64,000 nucleotides of DNA from Daphnia pulex (taxonomy: Eukaryota > Arthropoda > Branchiopoda > Diplostraca > Daphniidae). Each line of letters opens with the position of its first letter. Positions within the stretch are counted from its first letter, which is position 1. The translations under genes and the position numbers were made by a program. This document shows, piece after piece, positions 6,875 to 28,832 of the stretch. The notes beneath the pieces are model-generated. The model saw nothing but the letters and a program-made list of their open reading frames with translations. It had not been told where the DNA came from and made no database searches. The stretch covers positions 1,984,001 to 2,048,000 of the forward strand of contig NC_060020.1 in assembly GCF_021134715.1 (NCBI RefSeq), written 5' to 3'.

Positions 6875-8220
6875 TTTTTCCGGTTGTTACGGGAAACGGC
6901 CTGAATGTAATGTGCGTTGCAACGATTTTAATTGGCTGTTCTCAATAATCTCGTGGTGGTACTGAAGTCCGTTCTCACCGCAGAATAATTCAGCAAAAAG
7001 AATCAAATAAAATAAAAAGGATGGCAACCTGTCTGCGTATATTGATTACCCGGTCGTCAACGACGAATGAGGTAGGCAGATTCGTTCAAAAAGACTCGCA
7101 TGATAGCCGCACTCTTCTTCCTCTTTTGAAACTCTCCGTCTTCTCTGTGATGGCCTTGCGTTGAAAGTATCAACGAATTCAATCAAACAGCGTGAAAGGA
7201 CTGTTTATCACCGTTTTCTCATCTCGGACGTGAGAGTGATAGAGCAACATGACGAACATCCATTAGACAAAGTTTCTTTACAATGTCATCCTTTTCCTCC
7301 TCGTTCATTATCGTCGTGTAGCGATAAATATGGAGGAGGTGGTGGTGGGGGTTGAATCGAATGGGAATGGGGGAAAAATAGTCTTCCGTTTGAACCGAGA
7401 AAAAGATCCTTAAACAGATTCCGGCCAGCGTATATAATTTCGGTCAAATGCTATGGCTGGGGGAAGAACAAATTCCGGAACTGCCGTGTCATCGTTTCAA
7501 CATAACATATTACGCACCGTCCAAGAGGGGAAGAAAAATATTTCACGGTCTCGACATTTCCAAGTTTTCCTGTCGTTGTTGATTTTTTAATGTTTATTAT
7601 TTAGTTAATGTCTCTTATTTTGGCATATGAACGGATGTCACTCGTTTTCCCATGCAGACCGCACACACAACAATACAGTCACGAAAAAATTTATACGGCC
7701 AAAAAGTGACACACACGATTAAATTGAAAACGCGAGCAGATTTTCATTCACCTTGGAGAGAAAGCCGTTAGCTCATATTGAATTGAATTCTACTGTTAAA
7801 AAAAGGAATAGGAAATTACGGAGCCAAAGAAAAACTTTCCCAGGCCGGCCGACAACAATTACATATACACATCAGGGTCGCAAAGAAGAAGATGCGGCCG
7901 CCACCGCCGCTCCGTGCCTCGTTGATCTTGATATTCAAAATATTACTGTGCATTACTATATGTATACTATCTACGTGATGCTACTGGTCGATGACGTCCA
8001 AAAAAGAAAGCGTTACGGTACATCTTCCATTTCTGATTCTTAACGCTTGACTGGATTCAATTCGACTCACGTCAAACCTTTTCAGTCATATCCCCCCATT
8101 GGAATAAAATTAAAAAAATAAGAAATATAAGTCTCAAGGGTGCTTTCAAAAAAAGAGATAGTCTCTCAACTGAATGGGCGACGCGTTCTCTCTCGGTTAC
8201 TGTTTCCTTCAGCCGCACGT
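6875..8220 (+). repeat. Segment A, left copy (direct repeat of 41235-42573)
   Basis: This 1.35-kb stretch reappears in the same orientation at 41235-42573 with only a few substitutions noticed (for example near 7529, 7901 and 8009) and small indels near 8105-8130. It has no convincing gene: the short ORFs at 7161 and 7753 occur in both copies but show no known motif. The right copy continues into atonal upstream sequence, so the left copy may be the derived one. That direction is an inference. Confidence 0.9.
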
Positions 8221-8222: not shown

Positions 8223-9630
8223 GTATATTATTCAAGGGATTTCTAAAATAAATAGCACTAGTCGAGTGCTATTATTTTAGGGGTCATTTGGCGTTCCGTA
8301 TTCTAGTGATTAGATTTAAAATTGCGTCGTGGGGTTTCACCATTTCACCGTCGTGGGATTCAAATATGTATAGTTTATATTTTTTTTCTTTCTTATATTT
8401 TATGTCATAAGTATATATTTCCTACGGGAACCTCACAACCCAAATTGATGTATTTTTATTTGTCATTACAAATTAGCACCATTTTGAAAAAGCCGCCATA
8501 ATTTTTCTTTATTGACCACCTAGTAGTGGAATTTTGAACTGCTCTATCGAATCATGATTGCTTGTTGTCGTCTGCCTTATTGACTTATTTCCGCGTGGCG
8601 TGCTTTATTGAACTTGTTGGTTGGTTAAAATGGTTATGACCGAAGAAAAGAAACTTGAGTTGATTTCTTTATGACCATTCCATGAAATATTTGTTGTTAA
8701 GACTATGTGAAATGGAAAGATTAGAAAAAAACGGACATAGACAAACAGTAAATTAATTTTTTAAGATTAAATTCTGTTGGTTTGGGTACAAAGTGCATTA
8801 ACAAAACGTTGAGAAAACAGCAAGTTTTTCTGTTGGATGTTGGTTAGTTTATTAAATTTTCATTTATTAATTAACAGATAACAGATTATGCACACATTAT
8901 GCAGGGAAAGGGAATTTTTGACACAGACCTGTCATTACAAAGTCCAAAACTACTTTAGCGTAAGTACCAGTAATCACATTGGTTAGGTGAGCTAAAATTA
9001 GTTGTTTGTATAGTTGAGGTAAACCAAGAAGAAGATGAGCCAGCCATCACATTCAAAATTTAATTAGAGCTTGTTAATTGTATTTCTTTAATCATAGACC
9101 ACATAACAATACATTAGAGTCTGGTTTTTTAATTAAATATTCATATTTTACCACATAGGTAAGGGCTGGAAGACCTGTCAATTGAAGAATGTCAAAATTG
9201 TCGGAGATAAAAAAAAGAAAACAGAAGATGGATGGTGACGTCTCTTACTAAAAGATACAACACAGAAGAATATTGTTGAGTCTGGACCTTACCCCAACAA
9301 GGATGGTGAAGGAGTCTTGTCCTGTCCTATTTTCCAATTGTTGACTCTCTAAAAAGAACATCCCAATGGAGAAGAACATATCTAAAAAGTTACATGTCAG
9401 CAGTTTTCAGCTGCAATGTTGTGGACAGATCAAGCTGAATTATTCACATCCAAAACATCAAACAAAGAAAAAGTGAATCATATAGTTGGAAAATGTTTAG
9501 TGACTGTATTCTAGGTAATTGAATTTGTACAAATTTCTATTTTCTAAGCTAATAAAACTGTCTTTATCTTTTGTGATAACAAATAAGCTAGGTGCATTAT
9601 CTACGTTATCTCCAATAAAACCGAATTAGG
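8223..9630 (+). repeat. Segment B, left copy (inverted repeat of 39773-41210)
   Basis: About 1.4 kb that recurs in reverse complement at 39773-41210, roughly 96-97% identical by eye with several small indels. The right copy has an extra 9 bases close to the inner end. B starts 2 bases after segment A ends and begins GTATATTATTCAAGGG. The outer end carries a hairpin (8243-8280). No gene was recognised inside. Together the two copies act as inverted ends of the 33-kb block between them. Confidence 0.9.
8243..8280. repeat. Near-perfect hairpin at the outer end of segment B
   Basis: A 38-nt palindrome: a 17-base arm starting CTAAAATAAATAGCACT pairs with the reverse arm, with one bulged base and a short loop. 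The same hairpin, inverted, is at 41153-41190. It lies 20 bases inside both outer breakpoints of B. Confidence 0.8.
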
Positions 9631-10603
9631 TCAAGATTTGTGCATTAGATTTTTCTACCTCGTCATGCTTGAAGCAACAATTGAGATTAACACACTTAGG
9701 CTACACCTACTAAGATGAGTTGACTCGACACTTTGACGACGCTTAGTTGTGAGATGCTGTTGTCAAGCCAGCGTCAAAACAAGGTTAAAGGGGAGGAGAG
9801 ACAAAATAACAGTATCAAGGCTGTTCGCTACCAAACGATGTTGAGTTCAAATTGGTTCAATAAAGGTTACTCCTCCCCTCAATTGCTCCATTTTCATCTG
9901 ACCTCGAATACCGGAAAATACCACCAGGGGTTTTGCTGCGGGAAATCGGCGTGCCGATGGGCATTCCAGAGGCCAAAAAATGCTCAGTAGTCCACGTATT
10001 CGCACGGTGTACACTTGTCTCTTAGTTTGCTGCTGTAGTTTTGCATCTTCACGCCTTTGCACTTGGATTAATTGCGTTTTATGCATTGCCTACACAATTT
10101 GCCGTGGTTTCTCTGTAGTGTTTTGTGTCATTGATGGTCGTAGATTTCGTTTTACTATCTCATCACTATATCAGCAAAATTGCATCTGCACTAAAATAGT
10201 CTTGTAGTGTTCGTAGATTGATTCACATTATTTGTTGTCCACACCAGTAGCTACCTAATTAGAGTAAGCCAATCTAGATAAGATTAAAGTTAAGCATAAA
10301 ATAAGGATATTGTAGGTTAAGACGTTAAGCTAACCTAAGGCTATTGTAGGTTAAGCTAAGTTTAGGTTTAAGTTCACGATAGAGTTAGTTGCCAATTTAC
10401 TGTGGTGCCTCTGTGGTGTGGAAAATTCGTCTTTAGCAATCCCCAACCCTTACGTGTCAACTAATAATCCTTTTCTTTCACTTTCAGGAAATTGTGAATC
10501 TAAATTGAATGTTTTAGCTGTATATTTTCTATTTTTGCTTAATTGATTGTGGTTTAAAAAAAAACTATAAAGTTTATCCACCATTTGTCGTTGATGTAAT
10601 TAG
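9631..10603. other. Unique sequence before the exon array
   Basis: No gene is supported. The ORF at 9980-10207 has no recognisable feature. Around 10300-10370 the sequence repeats 'attgtaggttaag' and similar words that loosely resemble arthropod telomere-type TTAGG units, but too degenerately to call. An acceptor-like AG at 10602-10603 precedes the first exon-like segment of the array. Confidence 0.5.
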
Positions 10604-10681
10604 GATCATGGACCGGAGAGGATCGCCGCCGCCACTACAAGATCGTCGCTTCAAGATAGGACCCTGGCCCACGGGTCGAAG
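10604..10681 (+). other. First exon-like segment of the array
   Basis: A B-type segment with a different 5' end (GATCATGGACCGGAGAG). It has an ATG at 10608 followed by an open frame (MDRRGSPPPLQDRR...) and a donor GTAGAT after 10681. Spliced onward, the frame continues through exon A and stops in exon B, giving roughly 75 codons. This could be a short ORF of a spliced transcript; expression is unknown. Confidence 0.4.
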
Positions 10682-13600
10682 GTAGATTTCAATTGATTTT
10701 AAATGCTAAAACTTCTTCCATTAATGTTTTTGGATTTTCTTTAGACTGGAGAGGATCGCCGCCGCCACCGCCGCCGTCACCACTGGAGCCGCTTCAAGAT
10801 CGCCGCACGCTAGGACCTTCGCCAATGGATGTCAGGTATATTGTTTTCTTCTAAGTGTCTAACCATACTTTTTTTATGTACTCTAGATGGGACCCAGGAC
10901 CAAGGAAGATCGCCGCCGCCACTACAAGATCGTCGCTTCAAGATAGGACCTGGCCCACGGGTCGAAGGTAAATTTCATTTGATTTTAAATGCTAAAACTT
11001 CTTCCATTAATGTTTTTGGATTTTCTTTAGACTGGAGAGGATCGCCGCCGCCACCGCCGCCGTCACCACTGGAGCCGCTTCAAGATCGCCGCACGCTAGG
11101 ACCTTCGCCAATGGATGTCAGGTATATTGTTTTCTTCTAAGTGTCTAACCATACTTTTTTTATGTACTCTAGATGGGACCCAGGACCAAGGAGGATCGCC
11201 GCCGCCACTACAAGATCGTCGCTTCAAGATAGGACCCTGGCCCACGGGTCGAAGGTAAATTTCATTTGATTTCAAATGCCTTAAACTTCTTTTATTCATG
11301 TTTTTGGATTTTCTTTAGACTGGAGAGGATCGCCGCCGCCACCGCCGCCGTCACCACTGGAGCCGCTTCAAGATCGCCGCACGCTAGGACCTTCGCCAAT
11401 GGATGTCAGGTATATTGTTTTCTTCTAAGTGTCTAACCATACTTTTTTTATGTACTCTAGATGGGACCCAGGACCAAGGAGGATCGCCGCCGCCACTACA
11501 AGATCGTCGCTTCAAGATAGGACCCTGGCCCACGGGTCGAAGGTAAATTTCATTTGATTTCAAATGCCTTAAACTTCTTTTATTCATGTTTTTGGATTTT
11601 CTTTAGACTGGAGAGGATCGCCGCCGCCACCGCCGCCGTCACCACTGGAGCCGCTTCAAGATCGCCGCACGCTAGGACCTTCGCCAATGGATGTCAGGTA
11701 TATTGTTTTCTTCTAAGTGTCTAACCATACTTTTTTTATGTACTCTAGATGGGACCCAGGACCAAGGAGGATCGCCGCCGCCACTACAAGATCGTCGCTT
11801 CAAGATAGGACCCTGGCCCACGGGTCGAAGGTAAATTTCATTTGATTTCAAATGCCTTAAACTTCTTTTATTCATGTTTTTGGATTTTCTTTAGACTGGA
11901 GAGGATCGCCGCCGCCACCGCCGCCGTCACCACTGGAGCCGCTTCAAGATCGCCGCACGCTAGGACCTTCGCCAATGGATGTCAGGTATATTGTTTTCTT
12001 CTAAGTGTCTAACCATACTTTTTTTATGTACTCTAGATGGGACCCAGGACCAAGGAGGATCGCCGCCGCCACTACAAGATCGTCGCTTCAAGATAGGACC
12101 CTGGCCCACGGGTCGAAGGTAGATTTCAATTGATTTTAAATGCTAAAACTTCTTCCATTAATGTTTTTGGATTTTCTTTAGACTGGAGAGGATCGCCGCC
12201 GCCACCGCCGCCGTCACCACTGGAGCCGCTTCAAGATCGCCGCACGCTAGGACCTTCGCCAATGGATGTCAGGTATATTGTTTTCTTCTAAGTGTCTAAC
12301 CATACTTTTTTTATGTACTCTAGATGGGACCCAGGACCAAGGAGGATCGCCGCCGCCACTACAAGATCGTCGCTTCAAGATAGGACCCTGGCCCACGGGT
12401 CGAAGGTAGATTTCAATTGATTTTAAATGCTAAAACTTCTTCCATTAATGTTTTTGGATTTTCTTTAGACTGGAGAGGATCGCCGCCGCCACCGCCGCCG
12501 TCACCACTGGAGCCGCTTCAAGATCGCCGCACGCTAGGACCTTCGCCAATGGATGTCAGGTATATTGTTTTCTTCTAAGTGTCTAACCATACTTTTTTTA
12601 TGTACTCTAGATGGGACCCAGGACCAAGGAGGATCGCCGCCGCCACTACAAGATCGTCGCTTCAAGATAGGACCCTGGCCCACGGGTCGAAGGTAAATTT
12701 CATTTGATTTCAAATGCCTTAAACTTCTTTTATTCATGTTTTTGGATTTTCTTTAGACTGGAGAGGATCGCCGCCGCCACCGCCGCCGTCACCACTGGAG
12801 CCGCTTCAAGATCGCCGCACGCTAGGACCTTCGCCAATGGATGTCAGGTATATTGTTTTCTTCTAAGTGTCTAACCATACTTTTTTTATGTACTCTAGAT
12901 GGGACCCAGGACCAAGGAGGATCGCCGCCGCCACTACAAGATCGTCGCTTCAAGATAGGACCCTGGCCCACGGGTCGAAGGTAGATTTCAATTGATTTTA
13001 AATGCTAAAACTTCTTCCATTAATGTTTTTGGATTTTCTTTAGACTGGAGAGGATCGCCGCCGCCACCGCCGCCGTCACCACTGGAGCCGCTTCAAGATC
13101 GCCGCACGCTAGGACCTTCGCCAATGGATGTCAGGTATATTGTTTTCTTCTAAGTGTCTAACCATACTTTTTTTATGTACTCTAGATGGGACCCAGGACC
13201 AAGGAGGATCGCCGCCGCCACTACAAGATCGTCGCTTCAAGATAGGACCCTGGCCCACGGGTCGAAGGTAGATTTCAATTGATTTTAAATGCTAAAACTT
13301 CTTCCATTAATGTTTTTGGATTTTCTTTAGACTGGAGAAGATCGCCGCCGCCACCGCCGCCGTCACCACTGGAGCCGCTTCAAGATCGCCGCACGCTAGG
13401 ACCTTCGCCAATGGATGTCAGGTATATTGTTTTCTTCTAAGTGTCTAACCATACTTTTTTTATGTACTCTAGATGGGACCCAGGACCAAGGAGGATCGCC
13501 GCCGCCACTACAAGATCGTCGCTTCAAGATAGGACCCTGGCCCACGGGTCGAAGGTAAATTTCATTTGATTTCAAATGCCATAACTACTTTTATTAACGT

Positions 13601-16600
13601 TTTTTTTATTTTCTTTAGACTGGAGAGGATCGCCGCCGCCACCGCCGCCGTCACCACTGGAGCCGCTTCAAGATCGCCGCACGCTAGGACCTTCGCCAAT
13701 GGATGTCAGGTATATTGTTTTCTTCTAAGTGTCTAACCATACTTTTTTTATGTACTCTAGATGGGACCCAGGACCAAGGAGGATCGCCGCCGCCACTACA
13801 AGATCGTCGCTTCAAGATAGGACCCTGGCCCACGGGTCGAAGGTAAATTTCATTTGATTTCAAATGCCATAACTACTTTTATTAACGTTTTTTTTATTTT
13901 CTTTAGACTGGAGAGGATCGCCGCCGCCACCGCCGCCGTCACCACTGGAGCCGCTTCAAGATCGCCGCACGCTAGGACCTTCGCCAATGGATGTCAGGTA
14001 TATTGTTTTCTTCTAAGTGTCTAACCATACTTTTTTTATGTACTCTAGATGGGACCCAGGACCAAGGAGGATCGCCGCCGCCACTACAAGATCGTCGCTT
14101 CAAGATAGGACCCTGGCCCACGGGTCGAAGGTAGATTTCAATTGATTTTAAATGCTAAAACTTCTTCCATTAATGTTTTTGGATTTTCTTTAGACTGGAG
14201 AGGATCGCCGCCGCCACCGCCGCCGTCACCACTGGAGCCGCTTCAAGATCGCCGCACGCTAGGACCTTCGCCAATGGATGTCAGGTATATTGTTTTCTTC
14301 TAAGTGTCTAACCATACTTTTTTTATGTACTCTAGATGGGACCCAGGACCAAGGAGGATCGCCGCCGCCACTACAAGATCGTCGCTTCAAGATAGGACCC
14401 TGGCCCACGGGTCGAAGGTAGATTTCAATTGATTTTAAATGCTAAAACTTCTTCCATTAATGTTTTTGGATTTTCTTTAGACTGGAGAGGATCGCCGCCG
14501 CCACCGCCGCCGTCACCACTGGAGCCGCTTCAAGATCGCCGCACGCTAGGACCTTCGCCAATGGATGTCAGGTATATTGTTTTCTTCTAAGTGTCTAACC
14601 ATACTTTTTTTATGTACTCTAGATGGGACCCAGGACCAAGGAGGATCGCCGCCGCCACTACAAGATCGTCGCTTCAAGATAGGACCCTGGCCCACGGGTC
14701 GAAGGTAAATTTCATTTGATTTCAAATGCCTTAAACTTCTTTTATTCATGTTTTTGGATATTCTTTAGACTGGAGAGGATCGCCGCCGCCACCGCCGCCG
14801 TCACCACTGGAGCCGCTTCAAGATCGCCGCACGCTAGGACCTTCGCCAATGGATGTCAGGTATATTGTTTTCTTCTAAGTGTCTAACCATACTTTTTTTA
14901 TGTACTCTAGATGGGACCCAGGACCAAGGAGGATCGCCGCCGCCACTACAAGATCGTCGCTTCAAGATAGGACCCTGGCCCACGGGTCGAAGGTAAATTT
15001 CATTTGATTCCAAATGCCATAACTACTTTTATTAACGTTTTTTTTATTTTCTTTAGACTGGAGAGGATCGCCGCCGCCACCGCCGCCGTCACCACTGGAG
15101 CCGCTTCAAGATCGCCGCACGCTAGGACCTTCGCCAATGGATGTCAGGTATATTGTTTTCTTCTAAGTGTCTAACCATACTTTTTTTATGTACTCTAGAT
15201 GGGACCCAGGACCAAGGAGGATCGCCGCCGCCACTACAAGATCGTCGCTTCAAGATAGGACCCTGGCCCACGGGTCGAAGGTAGATTTCAATTGATTTTA
15301 AATGCTAAAACTTCTTCCATTAATGTTTTTGGATTTTCTTTAGACTGGAGAGGATCGCCGCCGCCACCGCCGCCGTCACCACTGGAGCCGCTTCAAGATC
15401 GCCGCACGCTAGGACCTTCGCCAATGGATGTCAGGTATATTGTTTTCTTCTAAGTGTCTAACCATACTTTTTTTATGTACTCTAGATGGGACCCAGGACC
15501 AAGGAGGATCGCCGCCGCCACTACAAGATCGTCGCTTCAAGATAGGACCTGGCCCACGGGTCGAAGGTAAATTTCATTTGATTTTAAATGCTAAAACTTC
15601 TTCCATTAATGTTTTTGGATTTTCTTTAGACTGGAGAGGATCGCCGCCGCCACCGCCGCCGTCACCACTGGAGCCGCTTCAAGATCGCCGCACGCTAGGA
15701 CCTTCGCCAATGGATGTCAGGTATATTGTTTTCTTCTAAGTGTCTAACCATACTTTTTTTATGTACTCTAGATGGGACCCAGGACCAAGGAGGATCGCCG
15801 CCGCCACTACAAGATCGTCGCTTCAAGATAGGACCTGGCCCACGGGTCGAAGGTAAATTTCATTTGATTTTAAATGCTAAAACTTCTTCCATTAATGTTT
15901 TTGGATTTTCTTTAGACTGGAGAGGATCGCCGCCGCCACCGCCGCCGTCACCACTGGAGCCGCTTCAAGATCGCCGCACGCTAGGACCTTCGCCAATGGA
16001 TGTCAGGTATATTGTTTTCTTCTAAGTGTCTAACCATACTTTTTTTATGTACTCTAGATGGGACCCAGGACCAAGGAGGATCGCCGCCGCCACTACAAGA
16101 TCGTCGCTTCAAGATAGGACCTGGCCCACGGGTCGAAGGTAAATTTCATTTGATTTTAAATGCTAAAACTTCTTCCATTAATGTTTTTGGATTTTCTTTA
16201 GACTGGAGAGGATCGCCGCCGCCACCGCCGCCGTCACCACTGGAGCCGCTTCAAGATCGCCGCACGCTAGGACCTTCGCCAATGGATGTCAGGTATATTG
16301 TTTTCTTCTAAGTGTCTAACCATACTTTTTTTATGTACTCTAGATGGGACCCAGGACCAAGGAGGATCGCCGCCGCCACTACAAGATCGTCGCTTCAAGA
16401 TAGGACCTGGCCCACGGGTCGAAGGTAAATTTCATTTGATTTTAAATGCTAAAACTTCTTCCATTAATGTTTTTGGATTTTCTTTAGACTGGAGAGGATC
16501 GCCGCCGCCACCGCCGCCGTCACCACTGGAGCCGCTTCAAGATCGCCGCACGCTAGGACCTTCGCCAATGGATGTCAGGTATATTGTTTTCTTCTAAGTG

Positions 16601-17490
16601 TCTAACCATACTTTTTTTATGTACTCTAGATGGGACCCAGGACCAAGGAGGATCGCCGCCGCCACTACAAGATCGTCGCTTCAAGATAGGACCCTGGCCC
16701 ACGGGTCGAAGGTAAATTTCATTTGATTTCAAATGCCTTAAACTTCTTTTATTAACGTTTTTTTTATTTTCTTTAGACTGGAGAGGATCGCCGCCGCCAC
16801 CGCCGCCGTCACCACTGGAGCCGCTTCAAGATCGCCGCACGCTAGGACCTTCGCCAATGGATGTCAGGTATATTGTTTTCTTCTAAGTGTCTAACCATAC
16901 TTTTTTTATGTACTCTAGATGGGACCCAGGACCAAGGAGGATCGCCGCCGCCACTACAAGATCGTCGCTTCAAGATAGGACCTGGCCCACGGGTCGAAGG
17001 TAAATTTCATTTGATTTTAAATGCTAAAACTTCTTCCATTAATGTTTTTGGATTTTCTTTAGACTGGAGAGGATCGCCGCCGCCACCGCCGCCGTCACCA
17101 CTGGAGCCGCTTCAAGATCGCCGCACGCTAGGACCTTCGCCAATGGATGTCAGGTATATTGTTTTCTTCTAAGTGTCTAACCATACTTTTTTTATGTACT
17201 CTAGATGGGACCCAGGACCAAGGAGGATCGCCGCCGCCACTACAAGATCGTCGCTTCAAGATAGGACCTGGCCCACGGGTCGAAGGTAAATTTCATTTGA
17301 TTTTAAATGCTAAAACTTCTTCCATTAATGTTTTTGGATTTTCTTTAGACTGGAGAGGATCGCCGCCGCCACCGCCGCCGTCACCACTGGAGCCGCTTCA
17401 AGATCGCCGCACGCTAGGACCTTCGCCAATGGATGTCAGGTATATTGTTTTCTTCTAAGTGTCTAACCATACTTTTTTTATGTACTCTAG

Positions 17491-17571
17491 ATGGGACCCA
17501 GGACCAAGGAGGATCGCCGCCGCCACTACAAGATCGTCTCCGCCGCAGCAAAGGACTTCGAAGATCTTTAA
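17491..17571 (+). other. Terminal, diverged exon B of the array
   Basis: The last B segment matches the others up to about 17538 and then changes to CTCCGCCGCAGCAAAGG. Here the frame that is closed in all other B copies stays open from ATG 17491 to TAA 17569-17571 (26 codons, ending KDFEDL). Such an end is what a 3' terminal exon would look like. Confidence 0.4.
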
Positions 17572-18816
17572 ATGGTACGGTATTACTTTTTCTTGCCTAA
17601 GGTTGTGTGAGTGTTTTATTGTGTTAAATGTGTGTTTGTGTAAGTATGATTTTCTTGTTTATTCCCTCTCCAATATAACCTGAACCACCTTAACCACAAT
17701 TATGGCATATCATTATGGTCTAGAAACAGTAGTCACTTTGGTTTTGCTGCTGGTCTAGTTTTACTTCATTTATAGTTTTAGTTTAGTTTTAGTTTAGTAG
17801 TTTTAGTTTAGTGTTCTAGACGGTGGATTAGTGTTGTAGTTTAGTTTTGATTTAGTTTTAGTTTAGTTTTAGTTTGAATTAGTGTTTTACTCGGTGATTT
17901 AGTTTTATTACAGTAAATATTCGGTAACAATCTAGGTTGTTGTTATTGTAGTTTGGTTTTTAGTCTTTTTATTTTTTTATTGTTTTCGAAATTTTGAAAG
18001 ACACATATCTGGAATCTGAATTCTGATCATCACAATTTTTCCACACATATCTGAAGTATTTTTGTTTGGCAACGTCATATACTCATATGGATCGCATGTA
18101 CGCATCATTCGTCAATTCGTCTGTGGCTCGTTCTGGTCTGATCTGTTCGTTCGTATTGTTTCTCCCAACATTGGGAAGAGTGAGTGACTCACACTGCGTT
18201 GAAGAATAGAAGGAAATTAATCATTTTATAAATAAACAATTATGTGAAGGTTCAATCAATCAAGTATCAGGAAAGTTCAAAGTGATAAATTATTGCAGAT
18301 TGAATCTGGTTCGAACATGGACATAAATTTCAAAAGTTGTTTTAAAACTAGGTAACAAACCAGCCTTCACATTCAAATTGTCCTCAATGCTCAAGAGGAC
18401 AATATACTAAGAGCTTGTGGGCTACAGGCTGAAGAAGAAATGCAAGATTGGGGTTACAACATTTTCCGATATTGAAAAATTTGCAATCACTACCTACAAT
18501 GATTTAAGAGGATTAATTGCAACAGAATCCAAACCGAGTAACAAAAAAATTATTGAAGGTAAACATTTCCTCTTTCTTTCTGATTTTATGAAACATTTCT
18601 GTTTGCAACTAAATTTTCAACTTGACAACTCTAGAACATCCAGAACAAGTCATCTCTGTTGAAAGTTAAATCAAGCTTCCGCAATGAAGTGCAGCTCACG
18701 GATTAGGGTGTGTTGACTGTTGACTCCACACAATTCTATAAAACCAGGAAAGAAAGATTCATTCTCATGCAGTGGCAATAGTTGAAGAAAAGTTGTCCCA
18801 AAATCAAGAATTGACA
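17572..18816. other. AT-rich sequence with TTTAG repeats and coding-like traces
   Basis: Between about 17760 and 17900 there is a run of AGTTTTAGTTTAG-type short tandem repeats. From about 18417 an open stretch ends at a donor-like GTAAAC (18559) and an acceptor-like CTCTAG (18631-18636) follows, as in a decayed spliced gene. The product is not recognised. The region runs up to the target duplication of the LTR element. Confidence 0.45.
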
Positions 18817-18821
18817 CAGAA

Positions 18822-19108
18822 TGTTGGGAATTTATTGCATCCCAACAGTGATCGACATTATTGCTACTGTTAATTCTGTGTAATTTGTAGGGACCTCAAC
18901 AGAGGGCCCCGATTTTACCCTCTCTTCCCATTCAATCTATTGTTCCCTACCCTACTCAACCCTAAACCAACTATTGAAATACCAAAATGCTGTATTATAC
19001 GGCAGTGTGAAATATAAGGACGAACTAGCAACAACAAAGGTGTCATCTCTTATCTCAATCTTGGAAGTTGAACGGTCGACACCGCCAACAAGAGTTCCAT
19101 TTCCAACA
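18822..19108 (+). repeat. 5' LTR
   Basis: 287 bp with TG...CA ends. The first 26 bases form an inverted repeat (TGTTGGG ... CCCAACA) around a 12-base loop. No difference from the 3' LTR was seen. Confidence 0.92.
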
Positions 19109-19124
19109 TGGTCCTTCGAACCGG
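19109..19124 (+). other. Putative primer-binding site
   Basis: TGGTCCTTCGAACCGG starts at the base after the 5' LTR, where tRNA-primed elements keep their primer site. The TGG start fits a tRNA CCA end. Which tRNA would pair was not determined. Confidence 0.6.
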
Positions 19125-19499
19125 AGTTTTCTCCAACCAGTGTTAAGTTAGTTTCGCTCTATCACACTCAAATCTTTCTCTCGTTATCTCCTTTTGCTTA
19201 ATCATTGCCGCCATTTATCAAAGAAAATTGTGTTTAATTATGGCAGGTCAGTCATTTATTAGAATCTTTTTCTCTCCCTCTGAGTTTAACTTGTTCTCAG
19301 GGGTCTAGTAAGCAAATAGATCCCTTTAAACAGTAAATTATTTCTCTTCTCTCTCTTGAATTAAAGCTAAAATATTTCCTCAAAGTTTCTTAAAATTAGA
19401 ATACGATTCCTAAATCATTTTTGAAGGGGGATTCTTTTCTTGTCACGCAAATTATCATCGCCTAAGTAAAATTATTCTCTCTTCCCTTTCAAAGAATTT

Positions 19500-20095
19500 T
19501 GTGGATATTGCCTTTCCATCTCTTAGATCGGGAAAAATCGGGAACTTCCCTACCTCTTTAACGTGTTCACCTCGTGTGAGCCTTAGGTGATATTCTCTCT
19601 CTATCTCTTGATACGCCTCCCGGCATTGTCAAAACGAATCTCAGCTGATTGGGTTCACTGCCCGTTCTTTAAAAATGGGATAACGCGGGAATCTCTTTCC
19701 TTTCAAGAATTTTTTTTGGGGGGGCTTGCTTCCCTACCTCTTAGATTGGGAAAACGCGGGAACTTCTCTAACCCTTCAATGAGTTCGCCTCGTGTGAGCC
19801 CCAGGGTGAAAAGACTTAAATAAATTATCGCTCTCTTTGCTATGGCCTTAGACCATTTCCCGAAAACAAATCTCTCTCATTTTTTTTAATTTGCATTGTT
19901 TGTTATTCAATCATTTGGGTAAATCTCTCTCTGTCTCAGAAGGCACAACGATCTCTCTAAATACGACAGAAAAATATTCTCTTTTTTGGGGGGCTAGGCC
20001 GGTTTCCCCTTTAAACTGGAAAAAACGCGGGAAAATTCTCTACCCTTTCAACGCGTTCGCCTCGTGTGCGCCTTAGGGTGATTAAAACTTGAATT
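19500..20095 (+). repeat. Degenerate tandem repeats in the LTR element leader
   Basis: Three copies, about 245-265 bp apart, of a block reading roughly 'ggaaaacgcgggaa...ctctacccttcaacgcgttc', then 'gcctcgtgtgagccttaggg'. They lie near 19525, 19750 and 20020 in the 1.45-kb untranslated leader before the gag-like ORF, separated by CT-rich tracts. They might be a packaging or dimerisation region; this is inference. Confidence 0.7.
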
Positions 20096-20560
20096 TTTTT
20101 TCTCTCTCTCTATTTACAAAGGCCTTCCGCCATTTCGAAACAAATCTCGCGCTCTTACGCTCTTGCATTTTTTGTTTGCTTAAAGGGAAATCTTTCTCTT
20201 TTTCTGAGAAGGCACAAAGCGCCCTCTGAGCACAAAATTGGGAATTAGAAACCGCCGTCTTGCGGCAAAAACTCTTTAAATTCTCTTTCCTAAAAATTGT
20301 TATTATGCCGTTTGTGGGATTGTAAGGAGCTAGAAAATTACCCTAGCTCCAAAATCATTCAGTTTTTGCAGATATCTTCACATAAAGGAATTCAAAGAAA
20401 GTGGAAAAGACAGCAGAATTTAATTCGGCACCACGAATCTCCGAAGACCGAGCAGAACAACAAACAAAAAGGCTAATCAACTTAATCAAAACATTAATTT
20501 AAACTAATTATCTTCTTTTCGTACTCTCAGCAGCTCCTTAGGAGCCACCTCCAACTCACA

Positions 20561-22552
20561 ATGGCTCCAAATTACGCAAGAACTTTAATTAAAAAGCATA
20601 TCACCCGTATCATTAACCTCGTCGAAACGTACAAATCAACAGAAATGACGTTGGAAGCGTTTATCGAAGTCGAAAAATTAGAAAAAAAGCTAGATGGATT
20701 CTACAAAACTTATGAGATATTCTCAAAAAGGGTCCAGGCTGAAATGTACAAAGAAGGCGAAGACCAAGAAGAGATCAATGCAGACATCGACACCATGTAC
20801 CAAACAATGGACGATGTTATTGTCGCCAAAATTCACATCTTAAAGAAAAAACGAAGAGAATGGTTAGACAAACTCGAAAAGGAAGCAGATGACGAAGAAT
20901 GGGAGAAGGACAGAGAAAGAATGCTCCAAATTCTCCAACATCAGGCAGCAACCCAGGCAGCAAACCAGGCAGCAACCCAAGCACAACTCAATCGGGACAT
21001 AATCAGTCAGGTGATCGCAGCCATCTCAACAGCCTTTTCAGTGCCCGTCGCTCCAGGAGATGTCAACTTATCACCAACAGCTTCTCAGGAGCCAGCTTCT
21101 CAAACAAATCCAGTAATAGAGTCAATTCTCAAAACCCTCTCAACATCTCAATTTGCAGCAGTATTAGTGCCAAACCCAACTCCACTAGAAGTGTCGTCGC
21201 TTACGACAACAAGCTGTAGTTTTCAAAACACCCCTTCATACCAGTCAAAAGAAAATATCCAGACGGAAGAAAAAGAGACTGGAACGGCCAGTCTCCCTCA
21301 CCCACCGAAAAAAGGAGACTCACTCTCGGATTCTCCGGATGGGCCAGACGGATATCCCGACAAAAAAAGGTTTGAAAGGAACGAAATAAAAGAAAATAAT
21401 TCCTTTGTTTCAAAGTTAGAAAACTCAGCAAATCTGGAAGGAGCAGAAAAAATCCCATCATCGAACGCGAAAAGTTGCTACAGCGACCAAAACGTCAAAT
21501 CAGCCCAGTCAAAAGAAGTCCCGATGGAAAAGGAGCCTGGAACAGCCAGTCTCCAACAACGACCAAAAAAAGGGCTATCAATCTCAGATATTCCGGTCAA
21601 ATCCAGTGGAAACAAAGACGAAAAAAGGTTTGAAGACGAGCTGAAAGCAACTAACCTCAAATTTGCAAACTTAGATGGTGTAGATGCAGTGGAGTCCAAA
21701 AATCTCTTGAGCTCCTCTAGCAACGAAAAAACTGCTTGCACACTCATTATTCAAGAAGCTCCAGCTACTCCGGCAGAAGCTCCTCGTCCTCTCATTATTC
21801 TAGAAGCTCCAGCTACTCCGGCAGAAGCTCCTGGTACTCTCAATCTTCAAAAAGCTCCAGCCAATCCGGCAGAAGCTCCTCACTCTCTTAGTCATCAAGA
21901 AACTCCTACTTATCAAGCAGAAGTTCCTGACACATTCAATTGTCTAAAAACTAAAGATTCAATTATTAGGATTCCGCCAGCCGGCTCCAAAGAAAAGGAT
22001 ATTCCTACCTTTCTTTTTTTCCCCTCGGGAAGGCCAGCTGCATCGCTGGAAACACTTAACTCTTTTCCGAGTCAACTTAAACAAACCAACTTCTCTTCTT
22101 CTGGAAATTTATCATCGTCGCCAGAAATCCAGGAAGCTTCGAAAGAAAATCCTCAAGAAGCCGCTGCATTTGTCAATTCAACAAACGTAGAAAGCAACCA
22201 AGAAATCATTCCGAAGTTCAGATCGCCGTGCAGTCAAGCAGCAATTCTTCCGGAATTGGCCAATCAACAAAACTCAATGAAACGGAAGCGCTTGGAGCCA
22301 GTAAAACCAGCTCCTAAACGCATCTCAAGGTTACCAAGTATAGAAGAACATCTCATCAACCAGTTGCTGTTCTCTTATTCGTTAACCCAGGTACCAAACA
22401 AAATCGTTTCACATCTTCTAAAAAATATTCTTGTGTTAAAGGACATTGAAGAAGATTCCAACACACACCAATCGGTATGGGATCCTGGTGGCAAACTTCC
22501 AAAGAGTCAGCCAACTCTCAATCGGAATCAAATGGAATGGACAATTAACTGA
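20561..22552 (+). CDS. Gag-like protein of the non-autonomous LTR element
   Basis: 663 aa, intact from ATG to TGA. Residues 1-115 are charged and helical-looking, with the layout of BEL/Pao Gag N-termini (a helix rich in leucine and lysine, then LDGFYKTYEIFSKRVQ). Next comes a Q/A-rich linker (AATQAANQAATQAQ, about 128-141). Two related blocks, each around GTASL followed by KKG and KKRFE/EKRFE, lie near residues 235-275 and 322-362. Residues about 395-465 hold four imperfect 16-aa repeats of the type EAPATPAEAP. No CCHC zinc knuckle and no enzyme motif was seen. A retained long ORF in an element without pol suggests the protein still serves the element, perhaps for particle assembly, or that the insertion is too young to have decayed. 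The BEL/Pao assignment is moderate. Confidence 0.8.
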   Translation: MAPNYARTLIKKHITRIINLVETYKSTEMTLEAFIEVEKLEKKLDGFYKTYEIFSKRVQAEMYKEGEDQEEINADIDTMYQTMDDVIVAKIHILKKKRREWLDKLEKEADDEEWEKDRERMLQILQHQAATQAANQAATQAQLNRDIISQVIAAISTAFSVPVAPGDVNLSPTASQEPASQTNPVIESILKTLSTSQFAAVLVPNPTPLEVSSLTTTSCSFQNTPSYQSKENIQTEEKETGTASLPHPPKKGDSLSDSPDGPDGYPDKKRFERNEIKENNSFVSKLENSANLEGAEKIPSSNAKSCYSDQNVKSAQSKEVPMEKEPGTASLQQRPKKGLSISDIPVKSSGNKDEKRFEDELKATNLKFANLDGVDAVESKNLLSSSSNEKTACTLIIQEAPATPAEAPRPLIILEAPATPAEAPGTLNLQKAPANPAEAPHSLSHQETPTYQAEVPDTFNCLKTKDSIIRIPPAGSKEKDIPTFLFFPSGRPAASLETLNSFPSQLKQTNFSSSGNLSSSPEIQEASKENPQEAAAFVNSTNVESNQEIIPKFRSPCSQAAILPELANQQNSMKRKRLEPVKPAPKRISRLPSIEEHLINQLLFSYSLTQVPNKIVSHLLKNILVLKDIEEDSNTHQSVWDPGGKLPKSQPTLNRNQMEWTIN

Positions 22553-22695
22553 ATCCGTAGCCAGTCAACGAAACAGCTCCTCGTAATCCAGGCCATCCGG
22601 CCATCCTTCTTCAACCGCATTCTCAGATCTCTAATCCAACGGATATCAAGTCGATCAGGATGTCGAGCCAATTGAACGGGCTCTACTGGGGAGTG

Positions 22696-22982
22696 TGTTG
22701 GGAATTTATTGCATCCCAACAGTGATCGACATTATTGCTACTGTTAATTCTGTGTAATTTGTAGGGACCTCAACAGAGGGCCCCGATTTTACCCTCTCTT
22801 CCCATTCAATCTATTGTTCCCTACCCTACTCAACCCTAAACCAACTATTGAAATACCAAAATGCTGTATTATACGGCAGTGTGAAATATAAGGACGAACT
22901 AGCAACAACAAAGGTGTCATCTCTTATCTCAATCTTGGAAGTTGAACGGTCGACACCGCCAACAAGAGTTCCATTTCCAACA
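22696..22982 (+). repeat. 3' LTR
   Basis: 287 bp, apparently identical to 18822-19108, followed by the CAGAA duplication. Confidence 0.92.
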
Positions 22983-22987
22983 CAGAA

Positions 22988-23950
22988 CTTGACACTTGTA
23001 ACTTCAAGCAACCCAACTTAAAGTTTGAAAAGGATTTGAATAGAGAAAACTCTCAAAACATTTGAGAAAGAGCTGAAACACGGAATTCCAATGGGTCAAA
23101 ACTGGAGAGTTCTCATTCATTGGCACCTACCACATCTTATTGGTCTCGGTCTACAACGGAAGAAGAAAATGCAACCGATGTAGGGCGTTGATAAAGTTGC
23201 ACTCATCCCCTGACTGCAGAAGAAGAGAGATCCAGGTCTTCTATTTAATGGCTTCACCCGATGGCTTTCACGTGACACGAGTCTTCACATATTGCTGGAT
23301 TCGATTGACGACTTGTTTTCATAAAAAAAGGACAACTACGCAAGCGGACCTCAGGCGAGAGACGATTTTGAAAATGGTTTATCCCGACTGCTAGTTCAGC
23401 AGACGAATCTAGGTTTAGAACTTGATAACATTACTGAACAGTCAAAGCCTTCCATCAATTCCTGCTGAAAAATGAAACTTCGTTCTCGGCCTACGTTAGA
23501 AGAGTCTTTGATGGTCGACCATCCGTGCAACTAGAACACGCCCGAAGAAAAATTACCGACTTCGACGAATCTTTATACGCTCACGTGTTCACTGAAGAAG
23601 TTGATCGTTTTATCGTGACACGTGATCGACAGGCAGTGCTATTGCAGAAGATTTTGCACTTGACGTCATCCCCGAATTTGTTTTCAAAAATGCTTATTTG
23701 GAATTGGGTAATTCTCTGGTGGTCCTTCAGCGAAAATCGATAATTTGGCAGCCATCGTCACTTCTGCCCCAATTACAAGAACCCATCCTTGCCGATTTGT
23801 TTGGTATATCACAATTTAAAATTACGTGCTTGTTTCTCTGATTTGAATTTATATTTTTAGAATTACAGAAGAAAAATCGAACGTTGGCTGAGGCTCGGTC
23901 TGTTCTCATTTCTGCCATAACACGTCTTCCCTCGTGATACCAAGCCACTA
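22988..23950 (+). pseudogene. Decayed coding-like region interrupted by the LTR element
   Basis: After the target duplication the sequence has long but broken open stretches that change frame, such as one around 23490-23690 reading YVRRVFDGRPSVQLEHARRK. A donor-like GTATAT near 23800 and an acceptor-like TTTTTAG near 23857 also look like remnants of a spliced gene. The part left of the insertion (18417-18816) may belong to the same locus. I do not recognise the protein. It could equally be an old transposon. Confidence 0.3.
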
Positions 23951-24182
23951 ATCACAAGCAAAGTGGGCAATCATTCAGATTCACACTCACATTTCCTAAA
24001 CTGAAATTAGAAACGAAACTAAACGTTAATCAGGTTAGTGATGCAACTACCCTTTGTACTTGCTTTTACCATAGAATTTTAACGCCACTCGCATCTGTGC
24101 TAATTATATAACCCAATTACAAGATGCGGAGTGAAGGGCTTTTTTTCCCGTTCGGAGCACAATATTTTTTGTCAACTTCCCC

Positions 24183-24271
24183 TGTATAAGATTTGAACTC
24201 GCCCCGGTGGCCATGCTGCAGCAGCATGTGCATATGGTGGTTATCAATACCACTGCTCAGTTATCTTACAA
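24183..24271 (-). pseudogene. Degenerate tRNA-like sequence or SINE head
   Basis: On the minus strand, TAACTGAGCAG fits the RNA polymerase III A box in 10 of 11 positions, and AGTTCAAATCT, about 45 nt later, fits the B box. The 89-nt span could fold with a long variable arm (ATGCTG/CAGCAT). The acceptor ends pair imperfectly and the T-stem is poor, so an active tRNA is unlikely. Confidence 0.35.
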
Positions 24272-25253
24272 ACGAATGCATATTACATGTTTCACATATG
24301 CAAAACGCTCTGTCGCTGTACCGTCAAGTCCCACACGCAACTTCGTACTATGCAATAGCAAAGGTACAGGAATACGAAACCATTTCATTTCCGCTCAGCT
24401 ACCGAGAGATTAATGAAGTGATGCTGTGATAGGTTTATGAAGTAGGTATATTTCGACAATCCCGATTTTTTTTGTAATAGCGTTACCAACTTGTACCGTA
24501 AAATTCAATATCCCTTTTTGTTACTATCCTAGTTGATCTCTATTCATTCCGATTCCCTTACTACCCTTCTACTCAACTGTCAACACCTTTCACTCATATA
24601 GTTGACCATTTGGATGATCAGACAAAATCTCTTAAAATTTGAAGCAGAAATACCAGTGTAACTAGTCTGTTTTACATTAATAAGAGACTACGCCAGTTTT
24701 CGTTGTGGCTAGTCATGCAGAATCAGCGTTTTAGAGCGTGTGGTATTCCTCCGTGCATTTACATTTCTCGCATGCATAAGCTGTTCATAGATCTAGACTT
24801 AGAAAGTTCTCTCTTTTATTGCGCCTTTTTTACCATTTGTTTTCAATTATCTGGCTCTTCTCTTCCCCCCCCCCCCCTTTTCAACGAAGAACTGCGCTTC
24901 ACTTTCTAAAACAAGAACTTAGGGTAAAATAAAAACTCTTTAGAAGTTCTATTCCCGGGTGTTCAACAGCTCGTTGTTTATTCCCCCTCTCTCGTTATGC
25001 AACAATTATGTGGTAGTGGCCTCAAATGCTTGTTAATTAGAACAATTATTCCAATTTCCAATTGATTTACCGAAAATTTATTTACTTTTTAAAATAATTT
25101 CCCTTAACTGTTGAGTAAAATGTGCCGAGGTAACAGTAAATAGCTACTATAGAAGGAACAAATACGATTAGAAAATATTTGCACTAAACTCAAGCTTGTT
25201 TACAATGCAGTAATACGCGCAAGACTTCCGCGTCTTTGGGTGCTGTACAAGAA

Positions 25254-25390
25254 GGTCGGCGGTGCGGGGACCATCAAGCATGGTTAGACAGTCAAAATCA
25301 AATCAAATGCCTTAGATACATCAGGGGAGGTCCTACGTGACGATCTTTGAAACGAAGATCTTGAAGAGACGATCTTGTAGTGAGAAGAAG
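25254..25390 (-). repeat. Diverged inverted relic of one exon-array unit
   Basis: Read on the minus strand it contains CACTACAAGATCGTC, TTCAAGATC and CGTAGGACC in the order found in the array exons, then TGTCTAACCATGC (array intron: GTGTCTAACCATAC), then GATGGTCCC and CCGCCGACC like the start of exon B. Exon and intron parts both match, so it descends from the same unit. Confidence 0.65.
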
Positions 25391-25792
25391 TTGTACAAGG
25401 AAGGTCAGCCAATCGGAAGTTGAAACGCCCAACAAAGTTGGGTGTGACTGCAAAGTGGAGTGGGTATCGGCCTTTCGTCTCATGACCTTATTAATAATAT
25501 TTAAACCTTTTCTGGTACGAGATTGATTTCTTTCCTCCGATTAATGCTTATTTCAAGGTGATCCCGTACACTGATTTGGCTTTTTTTTGTTTACCTGTTT
25601 AATTACCATTGCCAACCTGTCGAGGATGTTTACACCAGTTTACGCAACACGCTTATGGTGTTTGCCTTTCTCTTTTTCGATTGTAGAACTGTAGTAAGGT
25701 TTTTTTTTCTTTTTCCATCAAAGGGTGACAACCAACATCTCTTTTATGAGAGAACGAAAAACGAGGTGGGAGCAAGAGTGGACTGGTTAGTC

Positions 25793-25800
25793 TATATAAA
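25793..25800 (+). promoter_or_regulatory. TATA box for the secreted protein gene (left copy)
   Basis: TATATAAA, followed about 30 bases later by a plausible start region (near 25825) and then by a noncoding exon ending at a good donor (25889). It lies outside the palindrome arm, so the right gene copy does not have it. Confidence 0.6.
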
Positions 25801-25824
25801 CCCCGTTTGGCTGTGGACGGGTCC

Positions 25825-25889
25825 ATCGAGTGTTCAACTCAAGAACGAATTCCACCGACATATTTCGGCGTAACAAGTATTTTGTACAG
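25825..25889 (+). other. Putative 5' noncoding exon of the left secreted protein gene
   Basis: It ends TTGTACAG followed by donor GTAATT. The matching acceptor is most likely TTTTTCATAG at 26191-26200, with the next exon running from 26201 into the ATG at 26313. The start is inferred from TATA spacing. Confidence 0.5.
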
Positions 25890-26312
25890 GTAATTTGTAT
25901 TGTTATTTTATTTTTTGTATTTTATCTTGTATTTTGATTATTTTATTTATTTTTATTTTTTATTTTTGCTAGTTTACATTTTGTTTGTATTTTATTCGAA
26001 TTTTTAACAGGTATTTTGTACAGACATTTTGGCGTAACAGTCGTTTGTTACTCTTCACTCATCAACCACGGTATTAAAAATTATTCTAATTTTAAAAACA
26101 GTTTAAGTTATAATATTTCTAAGGATAAAGTATTTCGACGCAATGTCATGTATTTTATTTATTTTTATTTGTTTATTTTTATTTATTTATTTTTTCATAG
26201 AAAGATTGCAGTTAATTAAACAAAGACAGAGTTTGTTTCGCCATAACAAAGAGTCTAGGGAAAGCCCCGGACAAACCCGTTCTTGTTATAAGAACACGAA
26301 GCATTTAAGGAA

Positions 26313-27723
26313 ATGTTTGCTTCAGCCATAATATTTGCAGCTGCTGTCCCACTGGTATTGGCAAACAACGCCCCAACCTATTCTAGTGATGTCTCCAGTA
26401 CGGCCGACAATTCGTGTGAGAATTATCCTCCGCTTAGTGGTGCAAAAGTTCCACAAAATGGAAAAGCGTCTAATTCTTCTTATCCTGATGATGGCTGTGG
26501 AGACTATTCTGTCCGATTTAAGGGCGATGGATACTGTTATTCACTTCTGAAGAAAGGACCTTGTGAGAATGTGTTATTTTGGATTACGGTCGACCCGTAT
26601 ACTTACGAGGTGGGATTTTAATTCTTTTTAGAATTAATAGTTTATTTGTATTTTATCAAACGTGACTTTTAGGGAATATGCACTCCTCGCCTTTGTGGCA
26701 GAGAAAAAGTGTTCGTCGGTCGAGATGGTCTTTGTCACGATGTTTACGATACTAAAGAGTGTCGCGGAGGTAGGCGTCTTTATTACTCGGCTTACGGAGA
26801 TCCAATTTGTGATTGTCCTATTGGGCAATATCCATTCCCATCGGAAGAAGACGATTGCGTTCCTTTATTTACTCAAGGTGCAGTAAACGCCAATTTTCCC
26901 AAATTATTTGTTAATTAATTTTCTTTTATCATTTTTTTTAAGGGCCGTGTCCAACCAATCAGGTTGTATCCGTTAGTTCATCTGGTAAATTAGAGTGTTT
27001 CCCCAACACTTGTCAACTTGTTGATAGATATCAGGACTGCCTCCTGCAATTGGTCCCAGTTAAACAATCAAGAATAAGTAACGATGACAACGGCGATGAA
27101 TATGGATACTGCTATGGGTTAGGCACTCGTGGACCTTGCTCACCTTCTGAACTTTTTGGTTACAACATCTTTCACTGTCAGGGAGAGTGTGTTGACATGG
27201 ATGACCCTAGAACGCCTTACTTTTCTTCTCCGGAAGAGAATGCAATTTTAGATGATGTCTTTGATCGGGCCGCAAACGAACCCATAAAAACAAAGAATAA
27301 CAAAAGTAATACGTTTTTATGTGCACAACGGTTATCAAGAAAACGAAGACAAGGTATCAATACTTTTGGGATATTCCAACAGACAAGTAGAATTCCAACA
27401 TCTCTCCTAAATCCTTGTCAACCTGGCGGTCGAAACGGAAATAATTTCAAGTGTGCAAATCCTTTGGTGTAAGTTATTTATGCACGCATTTTAGCAAACA
27501 TTTAAGGACGCTTGATAATTTAAATTTATGTAATAATATCTTCTTCAGTCCTAGTAGACCCATACGTGACGTTAGTAAGCCTGTCAGTCCTGCTTTCGGT
27601 TGCCGACCAAATGATTTCTTGCGAGCTACTGGACAATGCGGTAGCAACCGTGTGCCAGCTAGCTGCGGACCTTCTTACAAATTCATCAAAGCTACAAACC
27701 AATGTAGACCAATTCGCTTTTGA
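26313..27723 (+). CDS. Secreted cysteine-rich protein, left copy (DUF4789-like)
   Basis: Four exons: 26313-26609, 26673-26877, 26943-27468 and 27549-27723, with GT...AG introns of 63, 65 and 80 bp. The spliced product is 400 aa. It starts with a signal peptide (MFASAIIFAAAVPLVLA) and has no later membrane segment, so it should be secreted. Cysteines recur in modules of the pattern GYCYxLxxxGPC (exon 1 and exon 3) and CVPLFTQGPC across the exon 2-3 junction. This resembles arthropod DUF4789-type proteins, a family of unknown function; the family call is from memory and moderate. RKRR at residues 300-303 is a furin-type cleavage site, so a C-terminal piece of about 97 aa may be released. The start has a TATA box and a 5' noncoding exon upstream. 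An inverted near-identical copy lies at 38096-39506. Confidence 0.85.
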
Positions 27724-27740
27724 ATTAAATTCGCTTTGTA

Positions 27741-27746
27741 ATTAAA
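27741..27746 (+). other. Likely polyadenylation signal
   Basis: ATTAAA, 18 bases after the stop codon of the left secreted protein gene. The mirror copy is at 38073-38078 on the minus strand. Confidence 0.45.
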
Positions 27747-28832
27747 GAATATAGTGGATAATCCTGAAATTCAACACAACTAATTTCGTAATTGATGCGA
27801 AAATACAAGTTTCTTAATATCATACAGTTAGTAAAATCACTCAAGTTTTCTTTTGTTCAAGCTGACTTAATTTAACTAAGAAATTTTATAGTATACGTAT
27901 ACCAACATGATGAATAGGTGACTGCTGTTTGAGACGATTTCTGCGAAATGATATATGGAGAAGGTAAGCGGTGAACGTGATTAGGAGCACATTGTGTGTA
28001 CGGACCGATGCAACTCACATTCAGACTATAAGCACAATATTTTCAAACCGATTTTTTTAACACTTAACTTCGGATTGGAGGAAAGAAAGGTCCAGAAATC
28101 CCCCACTAGGTGCCAGTGCAGTTTAACAACAACAACAGTTAAACAACAATGGCTGCCATTCCCTATATTGCTAACTGTGCTTAGTGGTCTTCTGTGCCGT
28201 TTGTCTTTCACGTTTCGATGCAGTGTTAACTGTTAAGGTGAATATTTTAAAATGTTTTAGCAGATTAAGTATTGCTAAACCCAATTAGTGGGTCATGCCG
28301 ACTACTTCCGCGTATTTAAAGTTCACACAGTTTAAGTGAGTGCTAACTAAAAAACTAAGTGTTAACTCAACCCAAAAAAAAGTCGCAAGTCACCATGTAA
28401 CTTGGAGAAAATATTACGTGAGTATCAAAGTTACTTGCCTTTAATTTTTATTTTTTTCAAGTAAGTGTAAACGAGCTAGAGCGGACATTGTTTTCATGTA
28501 AACGTTTCTTTTTCCTGGCGCTAGACGGCAAAGCCTTTGATCATTTTCCGCTCAGTTTAGTTTCGTTAACTTTGCACACCTCTCAAGAAATTTCTCGCTG
28601 CTACCACAAGGAAATTTTGGGTGATGGCTGTCAGTTTCTGTTTCAGCAACAAAGCTCACTTGTTAGTTTTTAATAATAATGTGCTTTTTTTCTACTTCCG
28701 GTTTTCTCATTTCTGTCAGTAGTTAAGTAAATATTCATCTGACGCACAAAAGAACCACATATTCGTGATCCTCGTCAAATTTGTGGTAAAGTTCATGTTT
28801 TTTTTTTTACGTACGCGTACTTCCGGTTTCAA

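Follow-up and report, generated by a model that had tools for sequence, protein, structure and literature searches.

In the available portions of their published accounts, several systems approach the locus described here. The Drosophila hsr-omega gene is noncoding; its first exon carries a short open reading frame (ORF) of 23 to 27 amino acids, and tandem repeats of about 280 bp form a long array. These repeats remain in an RNA that is confined to the nucleus and sequesters hnRNPs, and that portion of the source does not call them exons (PMC9865238). The IPW-A exons of the SNORD116 host transcript, from the Prader-Willi region, are tandem, spliced, and noncoding, and the introns host snoRNAs (PMC9369261). 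The human NBPF genes, according to an account likewise available in part, carry Olduvai repeats, which are two-exon tandem units of about 1.6 kb that encode a protein domain (PMC9584774). The human FAM230 lincRNA family, in the available part of its description, consists of noncoding genes formed by segmental duplication (PMC6162681), and DAPALR of Daphnia magna, in the accessible part of its own, is a long noncoding RNA that overlaps the Dsx1 5' UTR and acts as a decoy of an RNA-binding protein (PMC8351930).

The array studied here lies in a 64,000-nucleotide stretch of the Daphnia pulex genome (contig NC_060020.1, positions 1,984,001 to 2,048,000), which we call the window. It resembles hsr-omega, as far as that gene is described in the available text, in its long tandem array (288-bp units), in the short ORF at its first exon, and in having no long conserved frame, since none of the 11 arrays of its family was open with the obvious splice sites and the four that opened with an alternative acceptor were not open from the ATG. 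Unlike hsr-omega as so described, its repeats are exon-like. Genes of the hsr-omega type would transcribe a long array from one promoter; here arrays occur at 11 loci, and a TATA box marks a putative promoter upstream of 10 of them. A sequence relationship was probed through an Rfam search alone. As in the available description of IPW-A, exons are tandemly repeated, apparently spliced, and probably noncoding. Unlike the IPW-A/SNORD116 arrangement in that description, there was no snoRNA per intron, with no Rfam match in window positions 9400 to 26050 and introns of 49 to 66 nt. Introns of this length are too short to host snoRNAs. The family shares with NBPF, in the part of its account available, a two-exon unit amplified in tandem within a gene family and differs from it in that the units are 288 bp long and no common frame was found: a coding family of the NBPF type would be expected to keep one frame in most members, and here 0 of 11 arrays did so with the obvious sites and 4 of 11, not from the ATG, with the alternative acceptor. 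Like FAM230, it appears to be a noncoding family spread by segmental duplication, and like DAPALR it is a crustacean candidate for a long noncoding RNA with a decoy role; unlike the array family, neither is described as an array in the available text, the FAM230 description mentioning no tandem exon array and that of DAPALR no repeat array. The nearest systems in working would be hsr-omega and IPW-A and the nearest in gene architecture NBPF, and on what was testable the family meets the full definition of none of the hsr-omega, IPW-A/SNORD116, and NBPF types. A literature search turned up no system that joins short tandem exons, dispersed copies, and constraint on the exons at the nucleotide level, which is weak evidence given that subscription journals were mostly uncovered.

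Tandem Repeats Finder reported 24.1 copies of a 288-bp period at window positions 10618 to 17538 (98% matches, score 13150), and the array of 24 exon-intron-exon-intron units proposed by the sequence-only reading is thus real. Segmentation yielded 49 exon-like blocks in the window, comprising a first block, 24 B exons, 23 internal A exons, and a truncated last block, and confirmed that each unit holds two exon-like segments, the 82- or 81-nt exon A and the 91-nt exon B (letters opposite to those of that reading). Within the window, exon A was 82 nt long in 16 of 23 copies and 81 nt in the other 7, exon B was 91 nt in all 24, intron 1 was 63 to 65 nt, and intron 2 was 51 nt in 24 of 24. The claim that the GT...AG splice dinucleotides are conserved proved to be near-universal over all loci (124 to 127 introns per class): intron 1 had a 5' GT in 127 of 127 cases and a 3' AG in 126 of 127, intron 2 began with GT and ended with AG in all 124, and an AG preceded exon A in 127 of 127, a count that includes three further introns beyond the 124. 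Branch-like words had been ascribed to all copies. Judged by the word CTAA, this held for intron 2, where it was present in 124 of 124, but not for intron 1, where it was present in 46 of 127.

Beyond what that reading could have known, the genome contains at least 11 dispersed arrays of this kind, the one in the window among them. They have a common promoter-like region and 127 B exons in total, and two decayed relics (L019 and L020) were found in addition. A search of the 133.19-Mb genome (13 contigs) with 601 bases of the array gave at least 75 matches, and since such searches score the best candidates only, the array and match counts are lower bounds. The 11 arrays, resolved from the fetched matching places, are that of the window (W) and those of L009 to L018. 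Genome searches with a relic unit or a B-frame peptide revealed no further arrays among the best candidates scored, nor did the genome searches find an ancestral single-copy gene among theirs, giving just the two relics; viral contigs had no match to one exact pattern of the array. Each member consists of a conserved upstream region, in which 10 of the 11 loci carry a TATA box, followed by a first exon, between 2 and 24 A-B pairs with short introns, and a last exon common to all. Locus-specific variants were shared within arrays, which varied from 2 to 24 in B exon number. Decayed RNF213-like gene pieces lay downstream of the array at 10 of the 11 loci (all but L009, as fetched). The distance between W and L010 in this pseudogene sequence was 0.019, and that between W and the eight other loci with a value was 0.13 to 0.17; judged by these distances, the duplication that separates W from L010 is recent, and these close relatives differ in array length and B types. 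The dispersed copies with their shared promoter-like region turn the lone array into what is, on this comparison, a gene family.

The positions of the main features are given in Table 1. The p-distance between loci was higher further upstream than the promoter-like region, at 9360 to 9759, where it was 0.12 to 0.49 per 40-bp bin in 8 of 10 bins and 0.09 to 0.10 in the other two. The first block, GGATCATGGAC, was common to all 11 loci, as was the ATCATGG start context, and at all 11 the array ended with a truncated A block followed by common 3' sequence. The observation that the first and last segments are unlike the rest therefore extends to every locus, although the length of the first exon varies, being 14 nt shorter in eight loci (L009 and L012 to L018). 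At the usual distance from a TATA box, the start site would fall near 10591 to 10597, so that the first segment of the sequence-only reading is probably the true first exon; this exon may start a few bases further upstream if the TATA box is used.

Table 1. Features of the array locus, related features, and number of B exons at each of the 11 loci (W, window; positions are those of the window unless a locus is named).
Feature	Position	Strand	Details
Conserved promoter-like upstream region	9800..10603	+	Mean between-locus p-distance 0.02-0.10 per 40-bp bin, 11 loci
TATAAA box	10566..10571	+	37-38 bp before GGATCATGG, in 10/11 loci
Array of 24 units (A - intron 1 - B - intron 2)	10604..17571	+	49 exon-like blocks
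First exon with ATCATGG start codon	10604..10681	+	ATG at 10608
Truncated last A-type exon with own 3' part	17491..17574	+	TTTAAATG then GTACGG, putative donor
3' flank of family unit	17575..18821	+	Conserved first, then decaying
LTR element, 4.16 kb, within 3' flank, outside family unit	18822..22982	+	Identical 287-bp ends; 684-aa open frame
Decayed RNF213-like gene pieces	23283..23934	+	Broken frame
Intact RNF213-like 1010-aa open frame	L021 842-3874	-	Relative of decayed pieces beside arrays
B exons per locus			W 24, L009 9, L010 8, L011 13, L012 12, L013 18
B exons per locus, continued			L014 14, L015 10, L016 8, L017 9, L018 2

Exons and introns differed greatly in divergence. Between loci, the p-distance was 0.0051 for exon A (113 copies), 0.104 for intron 1 (127 copies), and 0.0415 for intron 2 (124 copies), and within loci the corresponding values were 0.0026, 0.0418, and 0.0069. 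Three of the 116 internal A exons, one each from L012, L013, and L016, are absent from the 113-copy distances and from the codon-position counts below, and the same 113-copy set underlies the pair comparisons, the medians, and the variability of the first 11 nt; the relics are excluded from the unit statistics. With all 116 copies the between-locus value for exon A was 0.0062, and for its interior, which is unfixed by the finder motif, it was 0.0040, compared to 0.104 and 0.056 for the interiors of introns 1 and 2. All 55 locus pairs had a smaller distance for exon A than for intron 1, and 52 of them a smaller one than for intron 2, the pairs not being independent. Ten of the 55 pairs had too few comparable pseudogene bases (300 or fewer) and were left out; over the remaining 45, the median distances were 0.130 for the pseudogene, 0.105 for intron 1, 0.051 for the promoter, 0.049 for intron 2, 0.033 for the B core, and 0.006 for exon A. 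Divergence of intron 1 was near that of the pseudogene pieces (about 10% versus 13%), and that of exon A was about 20 times lower. In the short stretches that could be compared in the two relics, exons (0.15 to 0.20) and introns (0.10 to 0.16) were alike in divergence, and base composition alone therefore does not explain the difference between exons and introns in the arrays. Exon and intron alternate every 50 to 100 bp or so in the 11 loci, and because of this alternation homogenisation alone should not spare introns. These results suggest that the exons are under strong purifying selection at the nucleotide level, now or until recently.

The explanation that we prefer, with somewhat less than even confidence, is that the arrays are RNA genes with tandem exons, driven by a TATA box and acting through their spliced RNA. 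Among the three ideas of the sequence-only reading, a putative spliced repetitive noncoding RNA is the best supported, between-locus divergence of exon A being about one twentieth that of intron 1 and no codon periodicity appearing in the few changes seen. Purifying selection would act on the exons as nucleotide sequence. A transcript made by polymerase II from the TATA-bearing region would begin near the predicted start site and would be spliced into a chain of repeated 173-nt A+B units that acts as RNA. With its many C-rich sites, nearly identical and weakly structured, this chain could bind a protein or another RNA at many points along its length, which would make the multivalent A+B RNA a sponge or scaffold, and unequal exchange could alter array length freely while exons and splice signals remain intact. 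The splicing, start site, and stability of this transcript are predicted from the DNA, and its binding or scaffold role is likewise putative. Should this be so, it is possible, and we say so tentatively, that the family represents a new class of tandem-exon RNA gene in which dozens of near-identical exons, along with their splicing, are maintained by selection for their role as RNA alone, the concatemer being built by splicing and unit number being free at each locus.

Stable RNA structure as the cause of conservation was rejected. None of 100 dinucleotide shuffles folded as weakly as the spliced A-B-A-B sequence of the window (z = +5.25), and exon A (z = +1.14) and exon B (z = +3.22) were also weaker than shuffles on average, one window allele being folded in each case. 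Such weak folding may suit many accessible binding sites, and clustered C alone may explain it. An Rfam gathering search of window positions 9400 to 26050 gave no match, so the array and its flanks hold no known structured RNA or snoRNA host. Selection on repeat-bearing long noncoding RNAs can seldom be judged against a control within the locus. In this family the introns supply one: they lie bases away from the exons and have diverged almost as much as the pseudogene pieces, and constraint on the spliced product can be gauged by comparison with them. Confirmation of splicing by RNA data would make the family an example of a repeat RNA assembled through splicing, in which multivalent RNA function and concerted evolution could be put to the test.

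The main rival is a repetitive proline-rich protein gene read through non-obvious splice sites and now broken at some loci, which we regard as unlikely; if it is coding, the array belongs to a proline-rich repeat gene family with an easily missed splice pattern. Joined at the obvious splice sites, the exons of the window gave a longest open frame of 147 to 148 of about 1405 codons, about five exons, and over the 11 loci the longest ran for 87 to 316 codons with no array open throughout; the earlier claim that the frame breaks within about five exons therefore stands. Its companion claim, that only chains of 81-nt exons stay open, was too narrow, because other splice choices also yield long open frames. 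When the A acceptor was moved 11 nt downstream (cut at ACCCAG|GACC, the +11 model), 4 of 11 arrays became fully open, not from the ATG: L013 (977 of 977 codons), L014 (774 of 774), L015 (546 of 546), and L017 (504 of 504). The other seven were broken, namely W (940 of 1317), L009 (352 of 519), L010 (134 of 468), L011 (293 of 730), L012 (453 of 670), L016 (352 of 473), and L018 (69 of 129). In the +11 model the frames from the conserved ATG ran for just 39 to 124 codons, and with any of 12 acceptor combinations they did not exceed 182 codons at any locus. Openness itself was cheap: the mean open fraction over 10 loci (L018, with one complete unit, was skipped) exceeded 0.6 in 39 of 183 splice models, and in a periodic, GC-rich array openness is therefore weak evidence for coding. 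A single long protein was looked for with these 12 acceptor combinations and 183 splice models and is disfavored; openness by itself discriminates poorly.

Other features of the exons bear on the same rival. The first 11 nt of exon A, which would be intronic in the +11 model, were more variable than the rest (0.027 versus 0.007) and held 4 of the 10 A variants found in the 116 A exons, as a downstream acceptor would lead one to expect; however, the +11 AG was present in 112 of 116 A exons and lost in 4, compared to 127 of 127 for the nearest AG, the G of which is fixed by the exon-finder motif. In favor of a protein, B lengths were of the form 3n+1 in 113 of 127 copies, the parts outside the CCG/CCA run being constant in length in all 127, and the peptide RGSP(n)EPLQDRRTLGPSPMD was kept in most B copies in one frame; triplet slippage in the CCG/CCA run would be expected to give the same 3n+1 lengths. 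A coding sequence should also change mostly at third positions, and no such synonymous excess was found among the few substitutions counted, where power was low. By codon position they numbered 4, 2, and 2 of 8 in exon A (P = 0.61; likely third positions, 4 of 8) and 13, 12, and 8 of 33 in exon B (P = 0.53; 13 of 33), and inclusion of all 116 A copies gave 4, 4, and 2 of 10 (P = 0.67). There was no codon periodicity among these A and B substitutions, so few that a weak signal could be missed, and mostly synonymous change in one B frame was not upheld by the count. Taken together, the frame and substitution tests make a protein running through the array unlikely.

The conserved ATG, which was in a good context at all 11 loci, is expected of an mRNA and counts against the reading of the transcript as RNA only. 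It could belong to a short-ORF messenger, in which the first one to three exons or so encode a peptide of 39 to 74 amino acids (132 at one locus) and the remainder is an untranslated tail or a decay trigger. In its favor, all 11 loci keep the ATCATGG context, 10 have the TATA box, and 8 (all but W, L010, and L011) would give a related peptide of 39 to 53 amino acids spanning exon 1 and the first B exon. At those three, however, the peptide differed in frame and length (74, 72, and 132 amino acids, respectively), and a messenger of this kind leaves the conservation of the far-downstream A and B exons unexplained; we consider it improbable.

A dead gene whose exons have become a satellite, with their conservation reflecting recent homogenisation by unequal exchange and conversion, appears quite improbable. 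Such a satellite would account for the variable copy number (2 to 24 B exons), for the sharing of locus-specific variants, and for the dissimilarity of the close pair W/L010 in array length and B types. A functionless satellite is also expected to evolve at one rate in all parts of the repeat, which was not found (0.005 for exon A versus 0.104 for intron 1): introns that lie bases away were far more diverged between loci than exon A, and the relics, over the short stretches compared, had no such contrast between exon and intron. The suggestion that a satellite had grown out of a gene was therefore not supported, because the exons look constrained.

That a transposable element carries the arrays about is highly improbable. 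In its favor are the copies themselves, at least 11 and dispersed, and a homologous block that extends, in window coordinates, from about 8460 to about 25100. Against it, the edges read (9 on the left and 4 on the right, not counting those of the window) had neither termini in common nor a target-site duplication, and subgroups share extra flank on either side. Most copies are old (W versus eight others, 0.13 to 0.17 in pseudogene sequence), so that segmental duplication suffices and, given the lack of transposon ends at these edges, is the simplest route of spread. The better-covered of the decayed RNF213-like copies match residues of about 628 to 719 and 885 to 1009 of the intact L021 protein and skip the part between, and this common gap points to one pseudogenic founder. 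In the L021 protein itself a Pfam domain of the RZ zinc finger type was identified (PF20173, E = 3.9e-9), and its sequence matches RNF213 chains (E of about 4e-7).

Several neighboring features of the window were recorded separately. The LTR element is probably young and nonautonomous; it held no further open frame of more than 110 amino acids, and a Pfam search with its 684-aa frame gave nothing above the cutoff. Downstream of the array, at 25276 to 25395, is a short inverted, degraded relic of the repeat unit (about 75% alike), which had no match in the related copy at C6:2092005-2092630. Further on, positions 26051 to 32094 and 33725 to 39771 form a large palindrome with arms that are 99.5% identical, flanked by an inverted pair (8223 to 9629 and 39776 to 41210) and a direct pair (6875 to 8220 and 41235 to 42573). 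The inverted arm at 39776 to 41210 is without an array; its interpretation as an empty insertion site was ruled out because other array loci share 9482 to 9629. One palindrome arm contains an open frame (26942 to 27472) with weak similarity to DUF4789 (E = 1.2e-5), its score of 26.2 bits being just below the curated cutoff of 27. Each arm also carries a 371-bp sequence, at 30469 to 30839 and 34980 to 35350, that matches its own reverse complement at about 84%.
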